Assembly: GCA_943788115.1 (NCBI GenBank)
Contig: CALSPA010000022.1
Coordinates: 1 to 56,553 of the forward strand
Direction of reading: 5' to 3'
Length of the DNA stretch: 56,553 nucleotides
Origin: an uncultured Flavobacteriales bacterium
GTDB taxonomy: Bacteria > Bacteroidota > Bacteroidia > Flavobacteriales_D > Parvicellaceae
Part shown: in pieces, positions 18,384 to 36,278 of the stretch
How positions within the stretch are numbered: position 1 is the stretch's first letter
Layout: each line of letters opens with the position of its first letter
Position numbers and translations under genes: made by a program
The notes under the pieces: model-generated
The model's input: the letters and a program-made list of their open reading frames with translations, nothing else
Told to the model about the DNA's origin: nothing
The model's database searches: none

Positions 18384-19373
18384 CTACCTAATATTTTTTT
18401 CTAAAATAACCTCATCATAATTTAAATCTACAGTAGATTTTTTATTTCTAAGAAGTGAAAAATCATTTAAGTCTGATAGTATATCTGACATTTTAAATGC
18501 TACATTTTCTAAACTAAAAAAATCACCTTTATTGATTTTCTTTGAAGCTACTGCTATCTTTTGTCGCCTTCTATAAGATAACTCATATTCATTTAAAATA
18601 GAAAAATCGTAGCTATTATTTAAAATCTGAAGATCTAAAAAGTTAAGCCTCTCAATAATCAATTTTAATTTATCTGCCCCAACGGAAGATTCATAATCTA
18701 TTCTTTTAACACCCTCTTCTAATGTTATATGCTTTTCAAAAACCCGAGCTCCCAATAAATAAGCATATTCATTTGAAGTAACAGAAAAATTGTCATCAAA
18801 TGATGAATGATCTGCATAACCAATTTTTAAAAAAGGGAATTTAGAAGCTAAAAAGAATATTTTATCTAAACGGACATTTTCAATTTTACTAGGAAAAGAT
18901 TGAAATCCATGCATCAACACTTCAACTTGTGAACCGAAGTACAACAACAGTGAATTTATTTCTTTTAATGTCCTACCACCAGCTCCAAGAATCAAAGGGA
19001 TATTTGATTCTTTTATCATTTTTTTCAGACTAGTGTCATTAAAACTAACGGAGTGTAATTCTAAATATTTAATGTTTTTTTTATACTCTAATAACATTTC
19101 AAATACAGAGCAATCCAATGGCATTGCAATAATATCTAAACCATTCTCAATTGATATATCAAAGATTTCCTTCCATTTATTGGGTTCAATAACTAAACTA
19201 GAAAGGGCTGAATAGTTACCGTGAGAGCTAGTTGTCAAAGAGTTTAATTCAAAAAGAATCTGAAATTTAATCCCATGTGCTCCAACTTCTTTTGACATAT
19301 GAACTAATTTTTTCAAATAATCATAATCTCCTTCATGATGAAATGCTGTTTCAGTATAAAAATAAATAGACAT
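18384..19373 (-). CDS. divergent NeuB-family synthase
   Basis: A 330-residue NeuB-like TIM-barrel plus SAF protein. The ATG at 19371-19373 is chosen because the longer reading begins at a TTG and overlaps the CMP-synthetase gene; the N-terminus then aligns with NeuB. It keeps IKFQ, GYADHS and FEKHITLEEG, and a C-terminal SAF-like region (RRRQKIAVASKKINKGDFFS). It departs from active NeuB enzymes: the usual AEIGxNHNG is TETAFHHEGD, and the catalytic EISADP-like stretch is ESSVGADK. It may make a different nonulosonate, or have lost condensation activity. It lies between the CMP-synthetase and PtmE-like genes. Confidence 0.75.
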   Translation of the reverse strand: MSIYFYTETAFHHEGDYDYLKKLVHMSKEVGAHGIKFQILFELNSLTTSSHGNYSALSSLVIEPNKWKEIFDISIENGLDIIAMPLDCSVFEMLLEYKKNIKYLELHSVSFNDTSLKKMIKESNIPLILGAGGRTLKEINSLLLYFGSQVEVLMHGFQSFPSKIENVRLDKIFFLASKFPFLKIGYADHSSFDDNFSVTSNEYAYLLGARVFEKHITLEEGVKRIDYESSVGADKLKLIIERLNFLDLQILNNSYDFSILNEYELSYRRRQKIAVASKKINKGDFFSLENVAFKMSDILSDLNDFSLLRNKKSTVDLNYDEVILEKNIR

Positions 19374-19374
19374 T

Positions 19375-20178
19375 TTATAGAAAGAATTTAAATGAGTTAT
19401 CAATCCTATTTTTCATATCTAATTTATATTCTTCAAAAGAAATAACTTTTCCATATGGATATTTAACTTCCCCTTTGGCATCATAAATCAAATGCCTAAT
19501 GTTATTTTTTTTTGCGGTCATTAAAAGTTGTTTTAATTCTATATTTAATTTGTCTAATACATTTGATTTATCAATAATCTCTAAAGTTCTATTGTAATCA
19601 TTTTGTGTATCGACAGTTAAAGTATAGTTAGAATAATCCTCATTAAAAGGCACAACAAGTCCACATTTATATCTTTGTGGATTAAACATATACAACATTA
19701 AATATTCACTAATTGATGGGTCCATATTTTCATAACAGTCTAACAAAGCACTAAAGCTAATTATTTCTGCAGATGTTCCTATAGGAACATTATGTAACCT
19801 AACGTAATCAAGTTTATTATTTTCAATAATTTCTAGTTGAGTATCTATATATTCATAAGAAGTAAAAACATTATCTCCTGTAACTCTGATAAGATAATCT
19901 GCATAATAATTTTGACCTACCTTAATCATTCTTTCAATAACCTTAGATTTAGAACCTCTATAAATAGAAACATCATTCTTTATAGCTGTTAATTCAAGTT
20001 CATCATCCGAACTGTCAGATGAAGTACATAAAACAATTTCATCTATTTTGGAACAATTTTTCAATCTATTTATTATGTAATCAAGCATGTTATGTTGTTC
20101 ATAGACTTCCTTAAACACTTTTTTTGGCAATCGTTTAGAAACCGTTCTTGCTATTACACATGCAACTACCTTTGTCAT
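19375..20178 (-). CDS. CMP-nonulosonate synthetase (NeuA/LegF-like)
   Basis: A 267-residue cytidylyltransferase when started at the ATG at 20176-20178, one base after the NeuB stop; an upstream TTG would add three residues. VVACVIARTVSKRLPKK is the CTP-binding loop. IDEIVLCTSSDSSDDELEL and IYRGSKSKVIERM follow the SpsF/NeuA-like pattern, with LIRVTGDNVFTSYEY carrying the metal-binding aspartate region. It would activate the nonulosonic acid made by the neighbouring NeuB-like enzyme as a CMP-sugar. C-terminally it has TLTVDTQNDYNRTLEI, as in SpsF-type enzymes. The sugar identity is unknown. Confidence 0.83.
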   Translation of the reverse strand: MTKVVACVIARTVSKRLPKKVFKEVYEQHNMLDYIINRLKNCSKIDEIVLCTSSDSSDDELELTAIKNDVSIYRGSKSKVIERMIKVGQNYYADYLIRVTGDNVFTSYEYIDTQLEIIENNKLDYVRLHNVPIGTSAEIISFSALLDCYENMDPSISEYLMLYMFNPQRYKCGLVVPFNEDYSNYTLTVDTQNDYNRTLEIIDKSNVLDKLNIELKQLLMTAKKNNIRHLIYDAKGEVKYPYGKVISFEEYKLDMKNRIDNSFKFFL

Positions 20179-20179
20179 C

Positions 20180-21235
20180 TTATTCAAAATTGTCTATTGA
20201 AAACAACACATCTTTATTAATATCTCTATTTAGTTTTCTACCTATAATTAAGAACTCTAAATCAGGGCTCAAACCACTACCTGGTCTTTTATACAAAATA
20301 TCATTTTTATCAATAATTTTACCTTTTTTTAAATTTCTTGATGCGACAGCACTTCTTCGAAACTTTATTTTTTTCTCTTCTTCTTGAATTGAGACTGTTC
20401 TAGTTTTCTCACCCAAAGCTTTAGAAATATTCACCCCTTCACTGCAAATTACTCTCATTTCATTCGAGTCAGCAGATATTTCATGATCCCAACCTGGAAG
20501 ATTTTTATCAATTGTGAAATGCTTTTCTACTATACAAGCTCCCTTAGCAATAGCAGCTAAAGGAATTGAAAATCCTATTGTATGATCAGAAAAACCTACT
20601 GGATAACCGAAAGTCTCATTTAACATATGTATGTTATTTAAATGAATATCCTCATATTTTGGAGGATAAATTGAGATACAGTGTAATAAAACAATATTAA
20701 AATTGCCTGCAGACTCAACAACTTTAATGGCTTTATCAATTTCAGAAATAGTAGACATACCGGTAGATAAAACAATAGGCTTTTGAAATTCAGCCAAATA
20801 CTTTAAAAGTCTATAATTATTAATATCCATCGAAGCTACTTTAAAGAAAGGAATATCAATTTCATTTAATAAATCAGCTTCTTTTTCCGAAAAAGGCGTA
20901 GATAAGAAATCAATACCAATAGTATCGCAATGTTTTTTTAATTCAAAATGCTGTTCAGGTCTTAAATAATATTTATTCACCATTTCTCTTAATGATCCAA
21001 AATGCTTTTTTGGAGAATCGTTATAAACTTGATTATTTTCATACTCTTGCTCAGAAACAAGTGAATCAGGTGTCCAAGATTGAAACTTCACAGCATGACA
21101 ACCAGCAGCGTAAGCAGCATTAATCATATTTATGGCTAAATCAATGTCACCATTATGATTAGCACCAATTTCAGCAATAATATAAGGTGCGCAGTAATTA
21201 AAAATTTTTTTATTTGGAGTTATTTGTACTTTCAT
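20180..21235 (-). CDS. nonulosonic acid synthase (NeuB/LegI-like)
   Basis: A 351-residue synthase that condenses phosphoenolpyruvate with a six-carbon amino sugar. The landmarks look intact: IIAEIGANHNGDIDLAINM, AVKFQSW, FLSTPFSE, KVASMDI, LSTGMST, GFSDHTIGF, VEKHFTID, and DHEISADSNEM. The C-terminal SAF domain reads FRRSAVASRNLKKGKIIDK. The best starts are the ATGs at 21235 or 21247; the 21250 reading begins with TTG. All overlap the GT2 stop. LegI, NeuB and PseI cannot be told apart by eye; the LegB/LegC/PtmE context favours a legionaminic-like product. Confidence 0.9.
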   Translation of the reverse strand: MKVQITPNKKIFNYCAPYIIAEIGANHNGDIDLAINMINAAYAAGCHAVKFQSWTPDSLVSEQEYENNQVYNDSPKKHFGSLREMVNKYYLRPEQHFELKKHCDTIGIDFLSTPFSEKEADLLNEIDIPFFKVASMDINNYRLLKYLAEFQKPIVLSTGMSTISEIDKAIKVVESAGNFNIVLLHCISIYPPKYEDIHLNNIHMLNETFGYPVGFSDHTIGFSIPLAAIAKGACIVEKHFTIDKNLPGWDHEISADSNEMRVICSEGVNISKALGEKTRTVSIQEEEKKIKFRRSAVASRNLKKGKIIDKNDILYKRPGSGLSPDLEFLIIGRKLNRDINKDVLFSIDNFE

Positions 21236-22103
21236 AATTAAATTCATCAAATGGTTTCACTTCTTCCCACCAAAAAAAGCATGGACTTTCTATTTCATTA
21301 AGCTTATCTAGATATTCATTGCAATTTTCATTATTCAATAAATAGGTCTTTAATTTTGAGTATGTGTTTAATTTATCTTTAAATATTTTTCCGAAATTAG
21401 ATAAGGATTTAAAATGTTCTATTTTAACATTCACAATAAATTTAACCTTTTCTAGATTTAATTTATCAAGACCAATCATGTTACCATCGTACTGCCTATA
21501 GTATATTGCAGTATTATTAGTAAATATAGTTTTTGATTTATACACTAACAAAAGTCTTGAAAACACTTGCCAATCAACAGCCAATATATTTGAGTTAACT
21601 AATAACCTTTTAGTCAAAATACTTGTTCTAATAGCAGTATTACCTAAACCTAAAATATTTTTGTCCAAAATGGTATTAAAATCAATTAGTGATCCATTTT
21701 CTAATCTATTTGAGAAATAATTTTTTTGGATCAAATCACCTTTTTGATTGACTAAATGAACATCATTTACTACAATATCAGAAATATCAAGAAGCGAAAT
21801 ATTTTCTTTAATTCTATTTTTTGGAAAAAAATCATCAGCATCCCCAAAAATACAATGTTCAAAATCTGATCTAATTAGAAATAGAATCATTTCATTTCTA
21901 ATCTCATTAGGAGAACCTTTAACATCGATAATTTCAACATTTAAACCGACACTAAGTTTTATAAGAACATTCTCATCAAGAGCATCATTAAATAAAATAA
22001 GTTCAAAGGATTTAAATGATTGTTCTCTCAAAGAATTAAAAAAATCAACTAAATAAAGCTCAATCTTTCGATGAACAACAGTAACAAAACATATCTTTTT
22101 CAC
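21210..22103 (-). CDS. GT2 glycosyltransferase
   Basis: A 297-residue family 2 glycosyltransferase. KKICFVTVVHRKIELYLVDF opens the GT-A domain. LILFNDALDEN is the nucleotide loop, and HCIFGDADDFFPKNR holds the DxD motif. Its start is GTG at 22101-22103, overlapping the TGA of the NeuD-like gene (GTGA). It sits between NeuD-like and NeuB-like genes, where a NeuC/LegG epimerase is often found in legionaminic clusters. It is probably used in building the same glycan. Specificity unknown. Confidence 0.82.
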   Translation of the reverse strand: MKKICFVTVVHRKIELYLVDFFNSLREQSFKSFELILFNDALDENVLIKLSVGLNVEIIDVKGSPNEIRNEMILFLIRSDFEHCIFGDADDFFPKNRIKENISLLDISDIVVNDVHLVNQKGDLIQKNYFSNRLENGSLIDFNTILDKNILGLGNTAIRTSILTKRLLVNSNILAVDWQVFSRLLLVYKSKTIFTNNTAIYYRQYDGNMIGLDKLNLEKVKFIVNVKIEHFKSLSNFGKIFKDKLNTYSKLKTYLLNNENCNEYLDKLNEIESPCFFWWEEVKPFDEFNYESTNNSK

Positions 22104-24865: not shown

Positions 24866-27800
24866 TTAAAACAGTTTGAATGATTTAGAATTGTCACCAG
24901 AATTTATAACTAAAAAATAAATTTGATTTTTAGTTAAAAGACCGGGGATATTAATTGAGTTATTTCCAGAAATCAAAAATTCTTTACTAAATACAATCTG
25001 CCCTAAAGAATTATAAAGAACAAGATTTATTTTTATTGGTTTTTCAACATCATAATCAACTATGATATTATCGTTGAAACAATAGGCAGAAATATCATTT
25101 ATTTCATCGAATTTTGGCAACAATAAAGATGTTGAATCCATTACAACAATATCTTTGTTCAATTCAGAATAACACAATGGATACATATTATTTTCAGCTA
25201 AAAGAGTTAAATTATATGTTCCATTTGAAGAATAAAAGTGAATAGGGTGAGTTTGGTTTGAAAAGTTTCCATCGTCAAAATTCCATGTATAATTATCAGC
25301 CCCAATACTTGTATTAGTTACAGCTAATTGTGCCTGTCCTTGATCAAAATAAATAGTATCAGTATTGGTTATAAAATTTGCTTCAATTTGTATAGGTTGT
25401 AAAACTTCAATTGAATATTGATTATTCAAGCAATTTTCAATAAGATCAGAAGAAATATTATAAAAACCAGCATGTATATTATTTAGCCACAACGAATCTC
25501 CCGAAACAATTCCTGATGAAACAACTGATCCAGATGGGTCTAAAAGAGAAAAATTAGACGCTGAAATGGAATTACCAGAAATTAGAACAGAACCATCATT
25601 TTCATCAAAACATGATGCATCTTGAGAAAACACATTATAATCATTAAAAAAATGAATATTAAACCTTGGAATAGTAGTCGTATCGCTAGATAAAAAAGAA
25701 TAGCTTGAATCGGATCTTAAATCAGTTATTATTCCAGTATGTAAATCTTCTAATTCGATACAACCATAATGCATAAACCCTTCAGGTATACTAAAATTAA
25801 GTGTGTAGGTACCTTGGGTATTTAACCCTGCTATAGCTGAGATTTTTAATTCTGATGAAACAAGATCATTTACTGCAGCAACACATAAATTTATAGAATC
25901 TTCACACAATACAGACAAACTTGGAGATTCATCAGGTAATTCTGTAAATAATTTAGGAAATTCCAATCCCTGATCATAAGATTCAGAAGCGTTAGGTAGC
26001 CTTCTAACAATTAACTCATCTTTATAATCATTTATATTACCTGTAAGGTAAACATGCATGTCATCTGAAGGATTGTATGTTTTAACAAATGCTTTATCTG
26101 TTCGTACTTTATCATCTTCATTTATTGTTATTGAACCTGTTGAAGATATCGCTTTAACCCAAAATGCTTGTGAGTGAGCAATTTCATTAGTTACACCATT
26201 AGAAGATCCGCCACTCCAATGTAAACCATATTGCCCATCTGTAGCATTCCAAATCCAAACGGCATCCTCAATGCCAGACTTAGTAACCAAATCCCAATCA
26301 ATTGTGCATGGATAGGGATTTCCTAACAAATTCCAGCCATTCTGATCATCACCACTTCCAGCTCCACCAGTTTGAGTTACAGGAATAACTTGAGAATTTT
26401 TATAAGGATTACCAGTTACTGAAAGTGTATAATCTACGGCATCCATATATACTCTATGCCCAGCTAATGGACCTGTATCATCAGTAAAAGCATCTTGAGC
26501 ATTAAACCATCCTTGATTTTTATTTCCTAAAGCATTTGGTTCAACGTATGTAAAAGCATTCACATAACTAAACCCTGGAACAGTTGAATTAGAAAAACCA
26601 CTAAATATAACCCCATTATTCTGCCAGTCAATAATATGAGTGTTCTCAACAGGTGATGTAATCTCCCTTAAACCTTGATTAGACATAGAAATAAACCTTT
26701 CTACAGTTAAATTTCCAGAAATATCTCCAGACTCTAAATCATCCATTTGAGCAGTAGCTAAAGCATTGGACTTTAAGGTGACAGCTCCACTGGTAGTAAA
26801 CGTACCAGAAACAATGTTTAATACTCCGTAAATATCTTGAGTTCCTGAACTAACAGAAACACCAGAACTATTATCAATTGTTAGAATATTCCAATCTGTA
26901 GTACCTGAAATAGTACTTAACGAAGATCCATCAAATGTCAATGAATCACCAGAAAAATAAGTATAACTACCTAAAGAGTTATCCCAGTTACCTCCAACAA
27001 AAATAAATGAGCCAGAAGAATTTGTTGTTCCTGAATTAGTTAAGTTTCCTTCAACGTCCAAAACACCATTTAAGCTATTAATAGAACCTGTTTGAAGATC
27101 TAAATTTCTAGCAACATTTAATGTCCCTCCAGAAAGGTCTAAGCCTGCTGTACTAACAACATTTAAATCTAGCGCATTTGAACTAGCAGATACACTTACA
27201 GTGTGACCAGCATCAATAGTTACAGTACTGCTAGAACTTGGAATACAAGAACAATTCCAAGTAGTGTTATCATTCCAAGTTTGACCATCAACAATACTTA
27301 TAATATTTGTAGAAGGGTTTCCAAGGGTGAAATAATAGTCGTCTTCAAGCTCGGCAGCAAGAACATTAAAAGTTACAATGCCTGAAGAATACACTCCTGA
27401 AATAACATTAGCTCCAGAAGAAAAATCACCATCAGTATCAATTAATAATTCATAATCAGGAGTTAATCCAAATCCATTTGAAGAAACATCGAAGGTTATT
27501 GTAAGATCCCCAACTTCATTTGTCTCAGTAACCCTCCAAGTTCTTTCATATATTTCACCGGCAGGAGAAGCAGTTGTATAAGCTAAGGGTGTACCTGTTG
27601 TTGTTGAATTTAAAGGATTTCCATCATGACCAAAAAGTAAATAATCATTATTATCAAGAGATGTAGCGGTGATTCTAACAATACCTTCTCCTTGTGCGTC
27701 TAAATGTTCATTTGAAGCATCTTCTCTACCAATGCCAGCTAATTCATTTCCATAAAGTGCATCATTGGTTGCAGAGTACTTATCATTTGAAGAAAGAGCT

Positions 27801-28567
27801 ATTGAATATTTAGTACTAAGATAATTTTGAATGATAATTCTTTGAGCCGAATTAATTGCTGTTGAATAAATAAAATACTCAGAAATATCTCCTGTATAAG
27901 GATATTGATTAATTTGATTGGCTGAATTTGCTCCTAAGGTAATATAATTATGCCCTGATGGATTAGCAGAACCATTAAAATTTTGATTTATAATACCTTC
28001 ATCAATATAGCTTTCAAATAAAGTTGTACCATCCCATATATTTGCCCAAATGTGTGTTCCAGACTGATAACTAGCATCAACAGGACTAATAGTAGAATTA
28101 GACTCCCTAGTATGGGCTCTAAACAAAGATGATGATGTATAGTTCCCCCATAAAGCATTTGATCCAAAAGAAGCCCCAGAAGAATAATTTGAACGAGTAA
28201 CTACTTGCAGAGATGTATTAGAAGTATTTAAAACTAAAAACCAAGATAGTTGATTATTTTCAAGATTAGATATTGAGGAAGAATTTAAATGTTGACTGTT
28301 AAATGAGACAGCAGGCCCAGAATTTATTGAACTATTATCAGAAAATGTAGGTTGGTAAGTAGGGTTTGATTGCGTAAAGTCATTGCTATTACCCGAAACA
28401 TCGCCCCATGATGATAAAAAATCTCCATTTGAAGCTGAAATTTTCGTAGCATCTAACCAAATTTGAAGTTCATTTATGGTTCCTACTCCACCAGGACCAT
28501 TGGGTGTTTGTGAGAACACATTAATTGTAAGTAAAAGAATGTATATTGTGTAAAAAAAATTTCTCAT
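24866..28567 (-). CDS. large secreted T9SS cargo protein (LamG-like, PKD, type A sorting domain)
   Basis: A 1,233-residue secreted protein. A signal peptide (MRNFFYTIYILLLTINVFSQ) is followed by a LamG/jellyroll-like region (about 30-260, LQIWLDATKIS and WGDVSGNSNDF) and by IGREDASNEHLDAQGEGI, a region common in flavobacterial surface proteins. A G8-like segment with CSC (about 430-470) leads into Ser/Gly/Thr-rich beta repeats. A PKD domain is near 1110-1150 (NYTWNFDDGNFSNQT), and the last 75 residues form a type A sorting domain (YNSLGQIVFSKEF, ending SFKLF). It should cross the outer membrane by T9SS and be surface-anchored or released. It is the first gene of the nonulosonate operon. Function unknown; possibly adhesive. 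Confidence 0.88.
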   Translation of the reverse strand: MRNFFYTIYILLLTINVFSQTPNGPGGVGTINELQIWLDATKISASNGDFLSSWGDVSGNSNDFTQSNPTYQPTFSDNSSINSGPAVSFNSQHLNSSSISNLENNQLSWFLVLNTSNTSLQVVTRSNYSSGASFGSNALWGNYTSSSLFRAHTRESNSTISPVDASYQSGTHIWANIWDGTTLFESYIDEGIINQNFNGSANPSGHNYITLGANSANQINQYPYTGDISEYFIYSTAINSAQRIIIQNYLSTKYSIALSSNDKYSATNDALYGNELAGIGREDASNEHLDAQGEGIVRITATSLDNNDYLLFGHDGNPLNSTTTGTPLAYTTASPAGEIYERTWRVTETNEVGDLTITFDVSSNGFGLTPDYELLIDTDGDFSSGANVISGVYSSGIVTFNVLAAELEDDYYFTLGNPSTNIISIVDGQTWNDNTTWNCSCIPSSSSTVTIDAGHTVSVSASSNALDLNVVSTAGLDLSGGTLNVARNLDLQTGSINSLNGVLDVEGNLTNSGTTNSSGSFIFVGGNWDNSLGSYTYFSGDSLTFDGSSLSTISGTTDWNILTIDNSSGVSVSSGTQDIYGVLNIVSGTFTTSGAVTLKSNALATAQMDDLESGDISGNLTVERFISMSNQGLREITSPVENTHIIDWQNNGVIFSGFSNSTVPGFSYVNAFTYVEPNALGNKNQGWFNAQDAFTDDTGPLAGHRVYMDAVDYTLSVTGNPYKNSQVIPVTQTGGAGSGDDQNGWNLLGNPYPCTIDWDLVTKSGIEDAVWIWNATDGQYGLHWSGGSSNGVTNEIAHSQAFWVKAISSTGSITINEDDKVRTDKAFVKTYNPSDDMHVYLTGNINDYKDELIVRRLPNASESYDQGLEFPKLFTELPDESPSLSVLCEDSINLCVAAVNDLVSSELKISAIAGLNTQGTYTLNFSIPEGFMHYGCIELEDLHTGIITDLRSDSSYSFLSSDTTTIPRFNIHFFNDYNVFSQDASCFDENDGSVLISGNSISASNFSLLDPSGSVVSSGIVSGDSLWLNNIHAGFYNISSDLIENCLNNQYSIEVLQPIQIEANFITNTDTIYFDQGQAQLAVTNTSIGADNYTWNFDDGNFSNQTHPIHFYSSNGTYNLTLLAENNMYPLCYSELNKDIVVMDSTSLLLPKFDEINDISAYCFNDNIIVDYDVEKPIKINLVLYNSLGQIVFSKEFLISGNNSINIPGLLTKNQIYFLVINSGDNSKSFKLF

Positions 28568-28654: not shown

Positions 28655-29401
28655 ATGTCTGAAACAGGAATAATAATACAAGCAAGAACAGGATCAACCA
28701 GACTCCCTAATAAAATCATCCTTCCTTTTTACAAAGAAAAAGGAATCCTTGAACTTATTGTTGAACGTATTAAAAAATCTATTGACATTCCAATTGTAGT
28801 TGCTACAACAAAAAACTCAAAAGATGATGCTATTGTGAAAATTGCTTCAAAAAATGGAGTTGGATGTTACCGTGGAAGTGAAAATAATGTATTAAGCAGA
28901 TTTATTGAAACAGCAAAAAAAAATAACTTCAAAAATATTATAAGAATATGTGCTGACAATCCATTTTTAGACATTGAGGACCTTGTTTTACTAACTAAAC
29001 AAAACAATTCTTATGATTATTCTTGTTTTAAAATAAACCATAACCCTTCTATTATATCACATTGGGGTTTATGGGCTGAAAAAACAAATCTAAATGCATT
29101 GGTTAAAATAAGCAGAAGCACAAATGAAAAATTATATTTAGAACATGTAACAAATTACATATATAAAAACTCAGATAAATTCAAAATAAATTACATCTCA
29201 AATTCTAAACTTTTTGATACAAGGAAAATAAGGCTAACATTAGATACCATTGACGATTTTAAGATTCAAAAAGAAATTTTTACTCTGCTTGTTAACAACA
29301 AGAACATGTTTTTTAATAAACATGATATTTTAGAAATTTTAGAAAAAAATCCAATTTATTTTGACAAAATGATTAAAAATATAAAACAAAATGAAAAATA
29401 A
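28655..29401 (+). CDS. SpsF-like cytidylyltransferase
   Basis: A 248-residue nucleotidyltransferase of the SpsF/CMP-sugar synthetase type. GIIIQARTGSTRLPNKIILP is the nucleotide loop. VVATTKNSKDDAI, CYRGSENNVLSRFI and IIRICADNPFLDIED (metal-binding aspartates) follow, and RLTLDTIDDFKIQKEI is the family's closing motif. It probably activates the product of the adjacent SpsE-like synthase as a CMP-sugar. The next gene starts 11 bases before its stop. It is the second cytidylyltransferase of the window, after the one at 19375-20178, and only distantly similar to it. Confidence 0.85.
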   Translation: MSETGIIIQARTGSTRLPNKIILPFYKEKGILELIVERIKKSIDIPIVVATTKNSKDDAIVKIASKNGVGCYRGSENNVLSRFIETAKKNNFKNIIRICADNPFLDIEDLVLLTKQNNSYDYSCFKINHNPSIISHWGLWAEKTNLNALVKISRSTNEKLYLEHVTNYIYKNSDKFKINYISNSKLFDTRKIRLTLDTIDDFKIQKEIFTLLVNNKNMFFNKHDILEILEKNPIYFDKMIKNIKQNEK

Positions 29402-30437
29402 TTCAACCTACATAATAGGTGAAATTGGACAAAACCACAACGGTTCATTAGAACTTGCTAAACAATTAATTGACATGGGAAGTATGTCAATTAAAGAACC
29501 AGTATTTAACACGAATATTAACAAAATAAATGCAGTCAAATTAACTAAAAGAGATTTAAGCGAAGAGTTATCTGACTCTCTAATGAGGAAAATTTACAAT
29601 TCTCCTCATTCATTTGGAAAAACTTATGGAGAACACCGGGAATTTCTTGAATTATCAAATAATGAACATTATGAGTGCTTTAAATATGCCAAAGAAAAAA
29701 ATCTTGACTTTATTGAGACATTATGTTCAATAAAATGTCTTTCGATTTTAAAATTATTTACACCAAATTTTTTAAAAGTTGCCAGCAGAGATTTAACAAA
29801 CCTTCCTCTTTTAAATGCATTATCAGAAACTAAAATACCAATCATATTATCTACTGGGATGGCTGGTAAAAAAGAATTAGATGATGCACTAAATATCATT
29901 ACTAAGTATCATAACAAAATCTCTATTTTACATTGTGTTTCTGAATATCCTACACAACCTCAAAATGTTAATTTAAATAGCATTAATTATTTAAAAAAGA
30001 ATTTCCCTAATTATAAAATTGGTTTTTCAGATCATACTATTGGAATAGCTGCACCCATTGCCGCTGTAGCAATGGGCGCAGAAATCATTGAAAAACACAT
30101 TACACTTGACAGAAAAATGAAAGGAACAGATCAAGCAGGATCACTTGGTCCCGATGGTTTAAAAAGAATGGTTCGAGACATTAGAGTTCTCGAGAAATCA
30201 TTTGGCAAAGAAGATTTATTTATTGAGCCTTCAGTAAAATCTGCAAAAATAAAATTAGAACGATCTATTGCAAGTAATAAAGATTTAAAAAAAGGAGACA
30301 TAATTTCTATTAATGACCTTCATTTACTTTCTCCTGGTGATGGGTATAAATGGTCTGAAAAAGAAAATATAATTGGGAGAAAATTAAATGCAGATCATTC
30401 TAAAGATGAAATAATATATAAAAAAAACATAAAATGA
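29391..30437 (+). CDS. SpsE/NeuB-family synthase
   Basis: A 348-residue NeuB-family protein, the third in this window. IIGEIGQNHNGSLELAKQLI opens the barrel. It continues with LSTGMAGKKELDDAL, ILHCVSEYPT, GFSDHTIGIA, IEKHITLDRKMKGTDQ and a SAF domain (LERSIASNKDLKKGDIISI). Residues about 38-85 (KEPVFNTNINKINAVKLTKR and beyond) differ from the KFQ-type loop of the 20180 enzyme and resemble SpsE of spore-coat type clusters. It would condense PEP with an unknown sugar. It overlaps both neighbours (11 and 4 bases), so the three plus-strand genes are coupled. Confidence 0.87.
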   Translation: MKNNSTYIIGEIGQNHNGSLELAKQLIDMGSMSIKEPVFNTNINKINAVKLTKRDLSEELSDSLMRKIYNSPHSFGKTYGEHREFLELSNNEHYECFKYAKEKNLDFIETLCSIKCLSILKLFTPNFLKVASRDLTNLPLLNALSETKIPIILSTGMAGKKELDDALNIITKYHNKISILHCVSEYPTQPQNVNLNSINYLKKNFPNYKIGFSDHTIGIAAPIAAVAMGAEIIEKHITLDRKMKGTDQAGSLGPDGLKRMVRDIRVLEKSFGKEDLFIEPSVKSAKIKLERSIASNKDLKKGDIISINDLHLLSPGDGYKWSEKENIIGRKLNADHSKDEIIYKKNIK

Positions 30438-31218: not shown

Positions 31219-33555
31219 TTACGATTCCTCACTATCCCCATAGCCATAGCCGTAGCCGTAACCGTAGCCGTAGCCGTAGCCATAATAAGCATTCCACTTT
31301 TTATGTTTAACTCCATTTAAAATAATACCAAAACTTTTAATATTAGACTTTTCAACAATTTGATCAAAAAAGGAAATTCCTTTTTTATTAGCTTTATTCA
31401 CATTCATAACAAAAATACTTGAATTTACTTTTGAAGAAAGATACAAACCATCACTAACGTAACCAATTGGAGGTGTATCTAAAAATAAATAATCAAAATT
31501 CATCTCAGCATATTTTATTATTTCATCTACTCTATCAGAAAGAACAAGTTCAGACGGATTTGGTGGAATTAAACCACTTGTTAAAATATATAAATCATTA
31601 TCAATCTTCTGAATGTATTTATCTAAGGAATCATCTCCAGATATAAAAGTTGAATTACCTATTTTATTATCCAAGTTTAAAACTTTATGAATCTTAGGTT
31701 TGTGCATGTCAAAATCTACAAGTAAAACTTTTTTACCAGTTCTACTAATCATCCTAGAAAGGTTTACGCTGATAAAAGTTTTACCTTCACCAGGATGTAT
31801 TGAAGAGATTAAAAATGATTTCAATTTCTTCTCTTTATCAACATTAAAAAAGTTTAATGATGTTCTAATACTCCTAAGGGATTCTGCGAAATTAGATTTT
31901 GATATAATTTCAGGCATCAAAACACTTTCTTCAATTTCAATAAACGGAACCGAACCTAATACAGGGAACTCAGTAGCAGCATTTAAATCTTTTAAATTTT
32001 CAATTCTATCAAAAAATATCAACTTTAAAATAGAAAAAATAAATGCAGTGCAAATCCCAACAAATAAAAACATATAAACAAAAGAATCAGAATCAGAATC
32101 TACCCTACCAAGCAGACGAGCTTTCTCAATAACTTTAGTCTGTGGCACTATACCGGATCTTGCAATATAAGTATTTGCTCTTTTTTCAAGTAAAAATGTA
32201 TACAACTTCTGATTTACTTGAAGTTTTCTGTTTATTGCCTCTAAATCTCTAGCTGATTTAGGTACATTTCTCACTAATTTTCTAAAAAAAGCTATTTCTG
32301 AGTCTTCATCTTTAATCTTTTCAAAAAGAGCTTTAATTGAATTATCAATGTATATCAATAAATCTCTTCTTTGATTTGCAATAGACTGATTGAGTTTTAA
32401 TAAATCTTGATGCTCTTTTTTAACCCCATATTTTAAATCAACTTTTTTTAGTTGTGCTTGATAAAACTTAGAGATAGATTGTTCTAAATAAACATCATCA
32501 TCTAAAATAAATAAAGCTGGAGGAAGAATATTTTCATCTTGAACAGCTGTTATGTAACCCTTTAAGTTCTCTAAAGATTTTATTCTAAGCTGAATTTTTC
32601 TTTTTGCAGATTCATGAGACATTAAATCTCTAAAATATTCTGTAGCTTCCTTATCAATGTCTAATATTCCTTTTTTATCTCTTACATTCTGAAGATCGTA
32701 TTCGATAGAGTCCATAATATCAACAACTTCATTTAATTGAACATTAATATATCTCAACGTATTTTCATTAATCTGAAACTGATTTTGTAATGTATAATCA
32801 ATATATGTCTGAGCCAATGAATCAAGAAAAATTTTAGACCTTATTGGCACCTCATCATTAAGTTCTATTGTAAGAATTGAAGTGTAATCTAAATTATCAA
32901 CCTTGATGTTTCTTAGAATTCTATTCACCCAATAGTTCATTGAATGAACTACTATTTTATAATTAACTTCAGAACTATTTTTAAAGTCAAAGGATTTAGT
33001 AAGATTAGTATTTATTGAATAATCAACAGAAAACTCAGTAGAGTCAAATTTATGGGTTCTGCTGATATTTACGCCTTCTAGCTCATATGAAATAGAATAA
33101 TTATTTGCATCAATAATTTTAAAATCCACAGGTAATTCATAAAGTTTTCTATTTAATACATCAATGTCAATAGTAAACGGCATGCCAGAAAAAAACTCTT
33201 TCGTGTTTAATCTACCAACAATAAAATATGATTTAGAGAAATCAAGTTTAGAAAGTGTTTTTTCAATTAAATCATAAGAAGTAATAATTCTAATTTGGTT
33301 AGTGACATCTCCATAATAATTATAAAAACCAACATTTGAATATAATTTCTCTTGATAATCGTATACATCATTTGACTTTAAAAGAATTTCGATTTTTGAA
33401 GCGTAGTTTGGGACAATCTTATATTTATAGTAATAACCAACAACTAAAAATATTAGAGGAAAAATAACAAATACATACCAGCTTTTAAGAATAGCTTTTA
33501 ATAGCCATTGTAAATCTTTTATAGAAATTATTTTATTTGATAAATCGTTTTTCAA
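31219..33555 (-). CDS. Wzc-like polysaccharide co-polymerase/tyrosine autokinase
   Basis: A 778-residue inner-membrane protein with a Wzz chain-length domain and two transmembrane helices (about 28-48 and 500-520) flanking a long periplasmic coiled-coil region. A cytoplasmic BY-kinase follows: Walker A SIHPGEGKTFISVNL (about 585-595), Walker A' VLLVDFDMHKP, and Walker B YLFLDTPPIG. The C-terminal tail holds nine tyrosines in a Y(YG)8 run before DSEES, the expected autophosphorylation cluster. It would control export and length of the polysaccharide. The start appears to be TTG at 33553-33555, with no nearby ATG in frame. A TATATTTG box lies 26 bases upstream. Confidence 0.9.
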   Translation of the reverse strand: MKNDLSNKIISIKDLQWLLKAILKSWYVFVIFPLIFLVVGYYYKYKIVPNYASKIEILLKSNDVYDYQEKLYSNVGFYNYYGDVTNQIRIITSYDLIEKTLSKLDFSKSYFIVGRLNTKEFFSGMPFTIDIDVLNRKLYELPVDFKIIDANNYSISYELEGVNISRTHKFDSTEFSVDYSINTNLTKSFDFKNSSEVNYKIVVHSMNYWVNRILRNIKVDNLDYTSILTIELNDEVPIRSKIFLDSLAQTYIDYTLQNQFQINENTLRYINVQLNEVVDIMDSIEYDLQNVRDKKGILDIDKEATEYFRDLMSHESAKRKIQLRIKSLENLKGYITAVQDENILPPALFILDDDVYLEQSISKFYQAQLKKVDLKYGVKKEHQDLLKLNQSIANQRRDLLIYIDNSIKALFEKIKDEDSEIAFFRKLVRNVPKSARDLEAINRKLQVNQKLYTFLLEKRANTYIARSGIVPQTKVIEKARLLGRVDSDSDSFVYMFLFVGICTAFIFSILKLIFFDRIENLKDLNAATEFPVLGSVPFIEIEESVLMPEIISKSNFAESLRSIRTSLNFFNVDKEKKLKSFLISSIHPGEGKTFISVNLSRMISRTGKKVLLVDFDMHKPKIHKVLNLDNKIGNSTFISGDDSLDKYIQKIDNDLYILTSGLIPPNPSELVLSDRVDEIIKYAEMNFDYLFLDTPPIGYVSDGLYLSSKVNSSIFVMNVNKANKKGISFFDQIVEKSNIKSFGIILNGVKHKKWNAYYGYGYGYGYGYGYGYGDSEES
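31237..31284. repeat. hexanucleotide tandem repeat encoding (YG)8
   Basis: Eight consecutive six-base units at the 3' end of the wzc-like gene encode alternating Tyr and Gly. The core unit on the plus strand is CCGTAG, with a few synonymous changes (CCATAG at the edge, AACCGT in the middle). Because the unit is a multiple of three, changes in repeat number would alter the number of tyrosines without shifting the frame. Confidence 0.9.
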
Positions 33556-33670: not shown

Positions 33671-33889
33671 ATGAAAAGAAAATTAACATTATCCCTACTT
33701 ATTCTATTTGTTTTTTCAAGTTCATATTTACTTGGACAGATAGGAGGTGGTGGACCTCCAGGTTCCAGCGGACCTCCTTGTTGGCCCCCACCTTGTGTTC
33801 CAGTTGATGGTGGTATAAGTATTTTAGTAGCTATCGGAGCATTTTTTGGCGGGAAATCATTCTACGATTTTTTGAAAACTAAACACTAA
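33671..33889 (+). CDS. small PID-CTERM exosortase substrate
   Basis: A 72-residue protein. The ATG at 33671 gives a normal signal peptide (MKRKLTLSLLILFVFSSSYL, then LGQ), which the upstream reading from 33617 would not. A Gly/Pro-rich stretch with two Trp-free Cys positions and PCWPPPC follows. Then comes VPVDGG, the sorting signature, one transmembrane helix (ISILVAIGAFFGG), and a basic tail (KSFYDFLKTKH). This tripartite C-terminus is what exosortases recognise in Bacteroidota. After removal of signal and sorting region only about 25-30 residues would remain. It lies six bases before the exosortase gene, so it is probably the dedicated substrate. Function unknown. Confidence 0.8.
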   Translation: MKRKLTLSLLILFVFSSSYLLGQIGGGGPPGSSGPPCWPPPCVPVDGGISILVAIGAFFGGKSFYDFLKTKH

Positions 33890-33895
33890 TCTTTT

Positions 33896-34474
33896 TTGAA
33901 TTCATTAGATCTAAGAGAATTATATAGAAATAAATCGTTTAGATTTGTACTCGTATTCTTTGCAGGTATTGTTATTTGGTTTAGCTTTTATCATTTCATT
34001 TATGAGTTTGACGAATTAATTTCTTCAAATTCACGTCAAATAGATATAAAAAAAAGTATTTCTATTTTACTTGCCAAGCAATCTAATTATTTCCTTTCTA
34101 TTTTAGGTTACCAGCCGAAAATTGAAATTTATTCAGACATGGTTGTTACACTAATTCAAGGCACTAAATATAATCACGGTGTTTGGATTGGAGAACCTTG
34201 CAATGGACTTAAACTTTTTGGAGTTTTCTCAATTTTCATAATTGCATTTCCCGGAAATTTAAAAACAAAACTTTGGTACATTCCGTTAGGAATAATAATT
34301 CTGCATTTTATAAATGTTATTAGGATTGCTATTCTCACAATTATACAAGCTTACAATCCATTACTCTTAAATTTCAATCATAATGTCACTTTTCAAGTAA
34401 TTATTTATTCGTTTATTTTTCTTTTATGGTATCTATGGACAAAAAAATTTAGCTCTTTATCTAAAAAAAAATGA
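33896..34474 (+). CDS. exosortase/archaeosortase-family transpeptidase (XrtX-like)
   Basis: A 192-residue membrane protein with several helices. It has the three catalytic features of exosortases: Cys102 in GVWIGEPCNGLKLFGVF, Arg143 in INVIRIAIL, and His162 in NFNHNVTFQVIIYS. It would cleave the PID-CTERM signal at the inner membrane and pass the protein to an unknown acceptor. The HGVWIG-PCNG form resembles the XrtX group rather than XrtF; that subtype call is from memory. No ATG precedes residue 82, and TTG at 33896-33898 is the only sensible start. It follows its presumed substrate gene by six bases. Confidence 0.83.
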   Translation: MNSLDLRELYRNKSFRFVLVFFAGIVIWFSFYHFIYEFDELISSNSRQIDIKKSISILLAKQSNYFLSILGYQPKIEIYSDMVVTLIQGTKYNHGVWIGEPCNGLKLFGVFSIFIIAFPGNLKTKLWYIPLGIIILHFINVIRIAILTIIQAYNPLLLNFNHNVTFQVIIYSFIFLLWYLWTKKFSSLSKKK

Positions 34475-34974
34475 GTAAAAAATTAATACTAATATTCACT
34501 TTAATTATTTCCAGTTTATTTTTTGATTTTTTCAGAGATTATGTTTTTCAGAATATAAATTTTCAAATACATTATTTATCTCATTTTAGAAACGGAATCT
34601 CCACAACTTTCAATATGACTGATAGTAGAATGTTATCTTGTATCAATCATTTATCTATACCAGAATTAGAAAAAATGAAATGGGTTTTTAGCCTGCTATT
34701 CATTTGCACTTTTCAGCTCATAACTATTTTTTTATCAGAAAATATTTTTCAAAAAAAAGGTCTCATTTTTTTCTTTCCAATAACATTTATTCTCAGTTGT
34801 TTTTCATTACTAGCATATTATTTTAGCACTATATCAGACTCATTAAATCACAGCTATTCTTTTTACTACATTTCAATTGAAATAAGTCATTTTTTACAAT
34901 CTTCACTTATCGTTATTTCTATGCTAATGATTTTTAAAGTTTATCTACTATTAAACACATCATCTAACAAGTAA
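34471..34974 (+). CDS. exosortase-associated membrane protein
   Basis: A 167-residue protein with an N-terminal helix (LILIFTLIISSLFFDF) and three further membrane segments (FSLLFICTFQLITIFL; LIFFFPITFILSCFSLLAYY; HFLQSSLIVISMLMIF). The late IEISHFLQSS motif resembles the HFLQSP segment of XrtX-associated membrane proteins, as I recall them. Its ATG overlaps the TGA of the exosortase gene (ATGA). It probably assists the exosortase; nothing in the sequence shows a catalytic site. Confidence 0.68.
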   Translation: MSKKLILIFTLIISSLFFDFFRDYVFQNINFQIHYLSHFRNGISTTFNMTDSRMLSCINHLSIPELEKMKWVFSLLFICTFQLITIFLSENIFQKKGLIFFFPITFILSCFSLLAYYFSTISDSLNHSYSFYYISIEISHFLQSSLIVISMLMIFKVYLLLNTSSNK

Positions 34975-35003: not shown

Positions 35004-36278
35004 ATGAAAAATGACAATCAGATTTTTGAATTAATTGATGCTGAAAAACATCGTCAGACAAATGGCATAGAACTTATCGCTTCAGAAAACTTTGTGAGTA
35101 ATCAGGTTATGCAAGCAATGGGGTCAGTCTTAACTAACAAATATGCAGAAGGGTTGCCTTTCAAAAGGTATTATGGTGGTTGTGAAATTGTAGATCAAGT
35201 AGAAACAATTGCTATAGAAAGAATTAAAGCTCTTTTTGGAGCATCTTGGGCAAATGTACAACCCCATTCAGGATCTCAAGCAAATTCGGCTGTTATGCTA
35301 GCTTGTCTAAATCCAGGAGATAAAATCTTAGGTTTTGATCTTTCACATGGCGGTCATTTAACACACGGTTCATCTGTAAACTTTTCTGGTAAATTATATC
35401 AACCTAACTTTTATGGTGTTGAAAAGCAAACAGGGTTAATTAATTATAACAAGCTAGAAGATCAAGCAATAAATGTTAAACCTAAAATGATAATTTGTGG
35501 TGCTTCAGCTTATTCAAGAGATTGGGATTACAAAGCATTAAGATTAATTGCAGATAAAGTTGGAGCTATTTTACTTGGTGACATTTCTCATCCATCGGGC
35601 CTTATAGCTGCTGGTCTTTTAAATGATCCGCTTCCTTTTTGTCACATTGTTACAACAACCACTCACAAAACATTAAGAGGCCCAAGAGGAGGTGTAATTA
35701 TGGTTGGCGAAAATTTCGACAACCCTTGGGGCTTAAAATTAAAATCTGGCAAAACTAGAACAATAACTTCATTATTAGATTCAGCTGTTTTCCCTGGATC
35801 TCAGGGTGGACCGTTAGAGCATGTAATTGCAGCAAAAGCAATTGCTTTCGGAGAAGCACAATCTAATGAGTTTAAATCTTACTGCAAGTCTGTCATTCAA
35901 AATGCCTCGGTAATGGCTAATGAAATGACAAAGAAAGGATATGAAATTATATCAGGTGGAACAGAGAACCACTCAATGCTTTTAGATTTAAGATCTAAAA
36001 ACATCAATGGCAAAGAAGCTGAAATTGCTCTTGGAAAAACAGAAATAACTGTTAACAAAAACATGGTTCCTTTTGATTCTCAATCTCCCTTTATAACTAG
36101 TGGAATAAGATTAGGGACAGCTGCAATAACAACAAGAGGGGTTAACACAGACGAAATAATTGAAATTGTAGATTTAATAGATCAAACAATTATAAATTTC
36201 GATAACGATTCTAAACTTTTAGAGATTAAGAATATGGTAAACGAATTAATGGCTAAAAAACCATTATTTAAATGGTAA
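35004..36278 (+). CDS. glyA: serine hydroxymethyltransferase
   Basis: A 424-residue PLP enzyme that interconverts serine and glycine with tetrahydrofolate, feeding one-carbon metabolism. [20 protein letters not shown] and [18 protein letters not shown] are diagnostic. The PLP lysine is in [17 protein letters not shown], and [18 protein letters not shown] closes the family pattern. Length is normal. The gene follows its own -7 box and is followed after 11 bases by fahA. Confidence 0.97.

Follow-up and report, generated by a model that had tools for sequence, protein, structure and literature searches.

PID-CTERM mini-substrates of XrtX-type exosortases are often paired with GNPYP-domain T9SS proteins and may serve as their small surface partners

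PID-CTERM genes, which encode very small predicted exosortase substrates, are often paired with genes for large T9SS-type proteins that share an unnamed domain, which spans some 390 residues and which we call GNPYP for its motif, and this pairing makes the GNPYP protein the likely partner of the processed peptide. The sequences suggest that the partner is likely a GNPYP T9SS protein rather than a glycan alone; the more specific proposal, i.e., that the processed mini-peptide acts as a small surface partner of GNPYP adhesins, is one to which we give about an even chance. The PID-CTERM/GNPYP pairing is new here, and the exosortase trio is of a kind already known to NCBIfam. No link of PID-CTERM or XrtX to T9SS cargo is stated in the searched literature, which mostly excluded subscription papers, and no description of a PID-CTERM or XrtX unit was found in the papers searched, those containing the term "XrtX" being unrelated by title. 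The pairing connects exosortases of the XrtX type with one class among the surface proteins of the T9SS, including relatives of a gliding adhesin, and speaks to the question which substrates the exosortases of Bacteroidota have; a Flavobacterium johnsoniae study reporting xrtF phenotypes leaves, in the parts of it drawn on here, the XrtF substrates to future work (PMC10936215). Moreover, the analysis points to the unnamed domain itself and to Flavobacterium mini-proteins that are missed by the PID-CTERM model.

The window, i.e., the whole stretch of 56,553 nucleotides that was analyzed, stems from the genome of an uncultured Flavobacteriales bacterium (2.68 Mb, 28 contigs, 89.5% complete). A preliminary description had reported three adjacent genes encoding a 72-residue Gly/Pro-rich substrate with the sequence PCWPPPC, an exosortase with Cys102, Arg143 and His162 and a four-helix membrane partner, and all of these elements are present (Table 1). 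The substrate consists of a signal peptide, recognized by eye, followed by the Gly/Pro-rich stretch with PCWPPPC, the PVD motif, a hydrophobic helix and a basic tail, and its residues 43–66 match NF046080 (PID_CTERM) with 32.6 bits (cut-off 26), which makes it a member of this family. The earlier estimate of 25–30 residues left after processing agrees with the 30 residues obtained by the crude rule of our survey and is slightly too high if the signal peptide ends before Q23, since the predicted mature peptide then comprises 24 residues (Q23–D46, our own reading of the sequence). The source genome was checked for other PID-CTERM proteins, and the assembly, in which about 10% of the sequence is missing, yielded a single PID-CTERM gene and a single XrtX-like gene, so that the suggested dedicated substrate-exosortase pair fits. 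Promoters and terminators were considered as clues and dropped, since a search restricted to sigma-70-type promoter motifs gave eight matches compared to 11.6 in shuffled sequences, and a search for terminators found none.

Table 1. Positions of the trio and of related genes and elements in the window.
Feature	Position	Strand	Evidence
PID-CTERM mini-substrate gene, 72 aa + stop	33671..33889	+	NF046080 match and translation
Predicted mature peptide, residues 23-46, QIGGGGPPGSSGPPCWPPPCVPVD	33737..33808	+	predicted cuts before Q23 and after D46
CWPPPC motif, residues 37-42	33779..33796	+	CWPxxC in 55/121 PID substrates
PVD (residues 44-46), PID-type sorting motif	33800..33808	+	PID_CTERM match
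GG, then hydrophobic helix and basic tail, after PVD	33809-33886	+	PID_CTERM match
XrtX-type exosortase, 192 aa, TTG start	33896..34474	+	NF046081, PF09721, leave-one-out profile, tree
Exosortase catalytic codons C102, R143, H162	34199-34201, 34322-34324, 34379-34381	+	
XrtX-associated membrane protein homologue, 167 aa	34471..34974	+	NF046082 below cut-off, leave-one-out profile, gene neighborhood
Wzc-type polysaccharide tyrosine autokinase, divergent from trio	31219..33555	-	TIGR01007, 147.7 bits (cut-off 108)
GNPYP protein, 1233 aa, PKD match and T9SS type A tail	24866..28567	-	groups by BLAST with large proteins encoded upstream of PID genes at other loci
GNPYP domain (1233-aa protein, residues 611-1007 approximately)	25547..26737	-	first row of domain alignment
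Sorting tail of T9SS type A (1233-aa protein)	24872..25069	-	TIGR04183

Judged by its sequences, the trio appears to be a divergent member of the XrtX/PID-CTERM exosortase units, for which NCBIfam already has a name. With the XrtX/PID-CTERM/XrtX-associated protein system (NF046081, NF046080, NF046082) it shares the gene order, a PID-CTERM protein over the cut-off and the catalytic residues, and the tree neighbors of its enzyme pass the XrtX cut-off; however, the exosortase (143.6 bits on NF046081, cut-off 170) and the partner (16.2 bits on NF046082, cut-off 75) stay below the curated thresholds. XrtX is the nearest model for the exosortase, which exceeds the cut-offs of the general exosortase family (PF09721: 28.2 bits, cut-off 25.7; TIGR04178: 51.3 bits, cut-off 23). 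The XrtF system with its exosortase F system-associated protein (TIGR04128, TIGR04127) likewise has a short exosortase beside a small membrane protein, and PID-like mini-proteins are present in Flavobacterium records as well; the window enzyme differs in its TIGR04128 score (84.4 bits, below the cut-off of 90) and probably in its tree position, where it joins two proteins of the same order that are over the XrtX cut-off, away from XrtF (support 92/86, long branch), although some sources name close relatives of the window exosortase XrtF. The three catalytic residues proposed earlier are conserved: in an alignment of 74 exosortases including that of the window, C102 and R143 are present in all sequences and H162 in 68, and in the window exosortase plus 120 database relatives (121 rows) the Cys, Arg and His are found in 121, 120 and 120 rows, the missing cells being gaps.

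The homology of exosortase and partner is secure and not due to chance, since profiles built with the window left out score the window proteins with 163.7 and 68.2 bits, respectively. For the partner, this is further supported by NF046082 matches at E 0.01 in 48 of the 52 aligned partner sequences, window included, and by the adjacency of exosortase and partner on one strand in 61 of the 63 loci where both occur; 13 loci have an exosortase but no partner. The AlphaFold2 model of the partner (mean pLDDT 88) contains four long helices and one shorter helix, in line with the four helices described before, and the model of the exosortase is confident as well. Foldseek searches with both models against the PDB returned nothing at E ≤ 0.001 and the exosortase profile had no match among the PDB sequences at E 1, and structure was dropped as a clue.

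The small size of the substrate is shared by its family. Among 395 genomes of the class, PID-CTERM was found at E ≤ 0.001 in 170, and 101 genomes have an XrtX over the cut-off, 91 of them together with PID-CTERM. The window and 120 fetched loci form a set of 121 from 120 of the 170 PID-positive genomes, the matches of the remaining 50 genomes not being among those taken; genes in this set were called by a simple choice of ORFs, and contig edges truncate some of the loci. The substrate frames in this set have 59–170 aa in 120 cases, with 115 of the 121 not exceeding 120 aa. The stretch from the estimated signal-peptide cut to the PID motif has a median length of 26 residues, with 29% Pro and 17% Gly (115 substrates, crude rule), so that predicted peptides with a length of a few tens of residues are the norm for the PID-CTERM system. 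Moreover, CWPxxC occurs in 55 of the substrates and a Cys pair ahead of the PID motif in 71. That small size and CWPPPC are peculiar to the source genome was considered and dropped, both being family features. The sole long substrate of the set (locus L152, G188:C1:2167132-2167203) is a 973-aa open frame that ends with the PID-CTERM match. In 76 of the 121 loci, a homologue of the exosortase is encoded no more than about 10 kb from the PID gene, in 59 of them directly downstream.

The link to GNPYP was first seen by clustering all neighbor genes of the PID loci, in which a large protein is encoded directly upstream. With a profile seeded from the 1233-aa protein of the window, GNPYP is found on the same-strand gene directly upstream of PID-CTERM in 55 of the 121 loci, distributed over 22 of 36 families and with a median gap of 26 bases, compared to 17 of 1626 genes at other offsets, the profile being trained partly on upstream genes. 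A T9SS type A tail is present in 53 of 56 upstream proteins of at least 400 aa and in 6 of 56 other large neighbors chosen at random out of 513, a control in which some GNPYP genes and some genes truncated by the end of a contig may be present. Of 25 GNPYP domains, none matched Pfam, and one had a weak match to an unrelated model in NCBIfam. The 1233-aa protein itself carries both the GNPYP domain (281.6 bits with a leave-one-out profile) and the T9SS type A tail (TIGR04183: 29.6 bits when the genome was searched and 23 bits, equal to the cut-off of 23, when the protein was scanned), and its secretion and surface attachment are predicted. It is the sole GNPYP match found in the source genome (full-length search; profile on the best four of five candidates), in which 114 of 116 T9SS tails among the matches listed pass the cut-off. 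Its gene lies in the same cluster as the trio, at a distance of 5 kb and on the opposite strand.

The pairing recurs where PID-CTERM genes are present in several copies. More than 22 extra PID copies exist; among the 22 that were fetched, from 12 multi-copy genomes, 20 lie directly behind a GNPYP gene of their own, and of the other two, one sits close to the start of a contig and one has a different neighbor. Cargo and mini-gene therefore look like a module that duplicates, with the exosortase staying mostly single. The mini-peptides of sister copies are nearly alike, which counts against cargo-specific recognition and suggests that the mini-peptide would be a docking tag shared by the cargo proteins and not a key specific to each of them. 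Different mini-genes are found behind the GNPYP genes of three loci of family f56 (L223, L227 and L244, genomes G272 and G134), encoding one N-terminal hydrophobic stretch and then about ten residues, e.g., SPEPPGGGF, without a C-terminal helix.

On the level of genomes, GNPYP is present in 165 of the 170 PID-positive genomes as against 66 of the 225 others, and in 207 of the 222 genomes with an XrtX-like match as against 24 of the 173 without; here, XrtX-like includes matches below the cut-off (101 genomes are over it), and thus XrtF-like enzymes. At most the four best candidates per genome were scored for GNPYP, and copy numbers are lower bounds. The association of GNPYP with XrtX-like enzymes is kept when stratified by family (16 informative families, p = 1e-16), and among 79 families 47 have both, 24 neither, three XrtX-like alone and five GNPYP alone. 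T9SS tails were found in 390 of the 395 genomes, with up to 14 best candidates scored per genome, so that the co-occurrence is more than plain T9SS presence, which was dropped as its cause. Among the 24 genomes with GNPYP and without an XrtX-like match are three from the order to which the window belongs (G218, G269 and G372), which have no PID match either.

Parallels exist in F. johnsoniae. The GNPYP profile matches RemA (8gl6 chain D, residues 1034–1350, E 3.7e-27) and RemZ (8gl8, E 5.4e-25), T9SS type A proteins that combine the GNPYP domain with a type A tail like the 1233-aa protein of the window but differ from it in their N-terminal parts. According to the portion of a deletion study drawn on here, deletions of xrtF, its partner, porU, porZ, Fjoh_0334 and Fjoh_0651 share one phenotype row, with sand colonization less, biofilm much less and zorbs abolished; PorU and PorZ are components of the attachment complex of the T9SS, and for the hypothetical gene Fjoh_0651 a fragment of 434 bp including the promoter sufficed for complementation (PMC10936215), which shows that this gene is small. 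The F. johnsoniae records contain mini-proteins of 71–84 aa that are PID-like by eye, and a mini-protein query found a relative in three of nine Flavobacterium genomes. Such Flavobacterium mini-proteins, of about 71–88 aa, by eye start with a signal peptide, which is followed by a P-I-D/N motif, a helix and then a basic tail, and Fjoh_0651 might encode one of them. The PID-CTERM model had no match over the cut-off in three of three Flavobacterium genomes (noise-level E 2.8–5.1), and a mini-gene follows none of the 13 GNPYP loci checked in three genomes of Flavobacterium, the mini-proteins sitting elsewhere.

From these data we infer a possible route for the peptide. The mini-protein would be exported via its signal peptide, and XrtX would cut after PVD, leaving a Gly/Pro-rich peptide of about 24 residues, and pass the new C-terminus to an acceptor in the envelope, probably a glycan or glycolipid of the neighboring cluster. 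The trimmed peptide might then reach the surface and dock or anchor the GNPYP domain of the adhesin, which would leave the cell separately through the T9SS, and the peptide would likely help to hold the adhesin in the sugar coat of the cell. A more far-reaching version, which we regard as improbable, is that two sortases build one anchor: XrtX would load the mini-peptide on a surface glycolipid from the neighboring polysaccharide cluster, and the T9SS attachment complex would deliver RemA-type GNPYP adhesins to the tagged glycolipid as their docking site. If this were true, the Bacteroidota exosortases would be the missing inner-membrane half of T9SS adhesin surface attachment.

A role connected to the polysaccharide has to be weighed against the adhesin-partner proposal. 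The distance of 115 bases between the substrate and the tyrosine autokinase of the polysaccharide cluster, reported in the preliminary description, was confirmed for the Wzc-type kinase ORF, and the cluster, judged from its ORFs, is a polysaccharide locus. A Wzc homologue is near 52 of the 121 PID loci, and in 48 of the 52 it lies upstream in divergent orientation, as in the window; it is near 49 of the 76 loci that have an exosortase in the vicinity compared to 3 of the 45 that have none (38 of 50 compared to 2 of 28 if only loci with full flanks are counted, Fisher p = 2e-9), and ABC-type polysaccharide export genes are near 30 of the 76. The answer to the question whether the trio always lies beside wzc is therefore no, and the link to the glycan, formerly drawn from location at one locus, holds as a frequent but not universal pattern of exosortase-bearing loci. 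PEP-CTERM/EpsH (XrtA) systems also combine an exosortase, a C-terminal sorting signal and a polysaccharide locus, and for them joining to the exported glycan was proposed (as cited in the part of PMC7468200 drawn on here); the window system differs by its other motif, its much smaller substrate and the one substrate found in the genome. The counts, the locus and this precedent would fit a peptide that serves the polysaccharide alone, being joined by XrtX to the exported glycan, with the GNPYP proteins as other proteins of the coat. We consider this rather unlikely, since in the loci without exosortase Wzc is rare yet GNPYP lies directly upstream in 25 of the 45, and extra PID copies follow GNPYP genes. 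That the mini-protein is instead an inner-membrane helper, e.g., one that works as chaperone or subunit either with XrtX or in cargo export, with no sorted product, would fit the about 10–15 residues between signal peptide and PID motif in several substrates (by eye; the minimum by the crude rule is 13) and the fact that processing of the mini-protein is a prediction, but it is built like the usual substrates of exosortases, from the signal peptide through motif and helix to the basic tail, and PID-CTERM accompanies most XrtX enzymes over the cut-off, making a helper quite unlikely.

The least probable of the readings considered, which we hold to be highly unlikely, is that the cut peptide or the membrane stub is a signal reporting the state of envelope or cargo; the product is very small and in some genomes a single exosortase has several substrates, but no receptor or regulator recurs among the neighbor clusters inspected, which are partly annotated. 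It also seems very unlikely that the GNPYP gene of the window is an unrelated neighbor and the association a result of common descent of surface loci rich in genes: 5 kb and a change of strand separate the two genes, the genomes are related to each other, and the occurrence of XrtX-like, PID and GNPYP genes follows the families, but the pairing is found in 22 families and again in extra copies, and the co-occurrence persists within the informative families. The adhesin-partner proposal is favored by the upstream pairing, the extra copies, the co-occurrence also within families, the GNPYP gene in the same cluster of the window, the domain in RemA and RemZ and the F. johnsoniae deletion row. Against it speak the distance and strand of the window GNPYP gene, the 66 of 121 loci with a gene other than GNPYP directly upstream, the 24 genomes with GNPYP and without XrtX-like enzyme, family f56, in which the mini-gene follows just 5 of 30 GNPYP loci, the 0 of 13 in Flavobacterium, the exosortase and partner scores under the XrtX cut-offs, the near-identity of sister mini-peptides and the 18 of 78 full-flank loci with neither GNPYP nor Wzc near.

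The neighborhood of the trio has further features. The C-terminal end of the Wzc-type kinase contains in its translation a run of Gly-Tyr repeats (YGYGYGYG...), and the same polysaccharide cluster holds three nonulosonate (NeuB-type) synthase-like genes, named by eye (window 18384-19403, 20180-21250 and 29391-30437). Directly 3' of the trio lies a serine hydroxymethyltransferase gene (35004-36278; name from matches of control members), a homologue of which is near 38 of the 121 PID loci, a conserved neighborhood for which there is no obvious reason.
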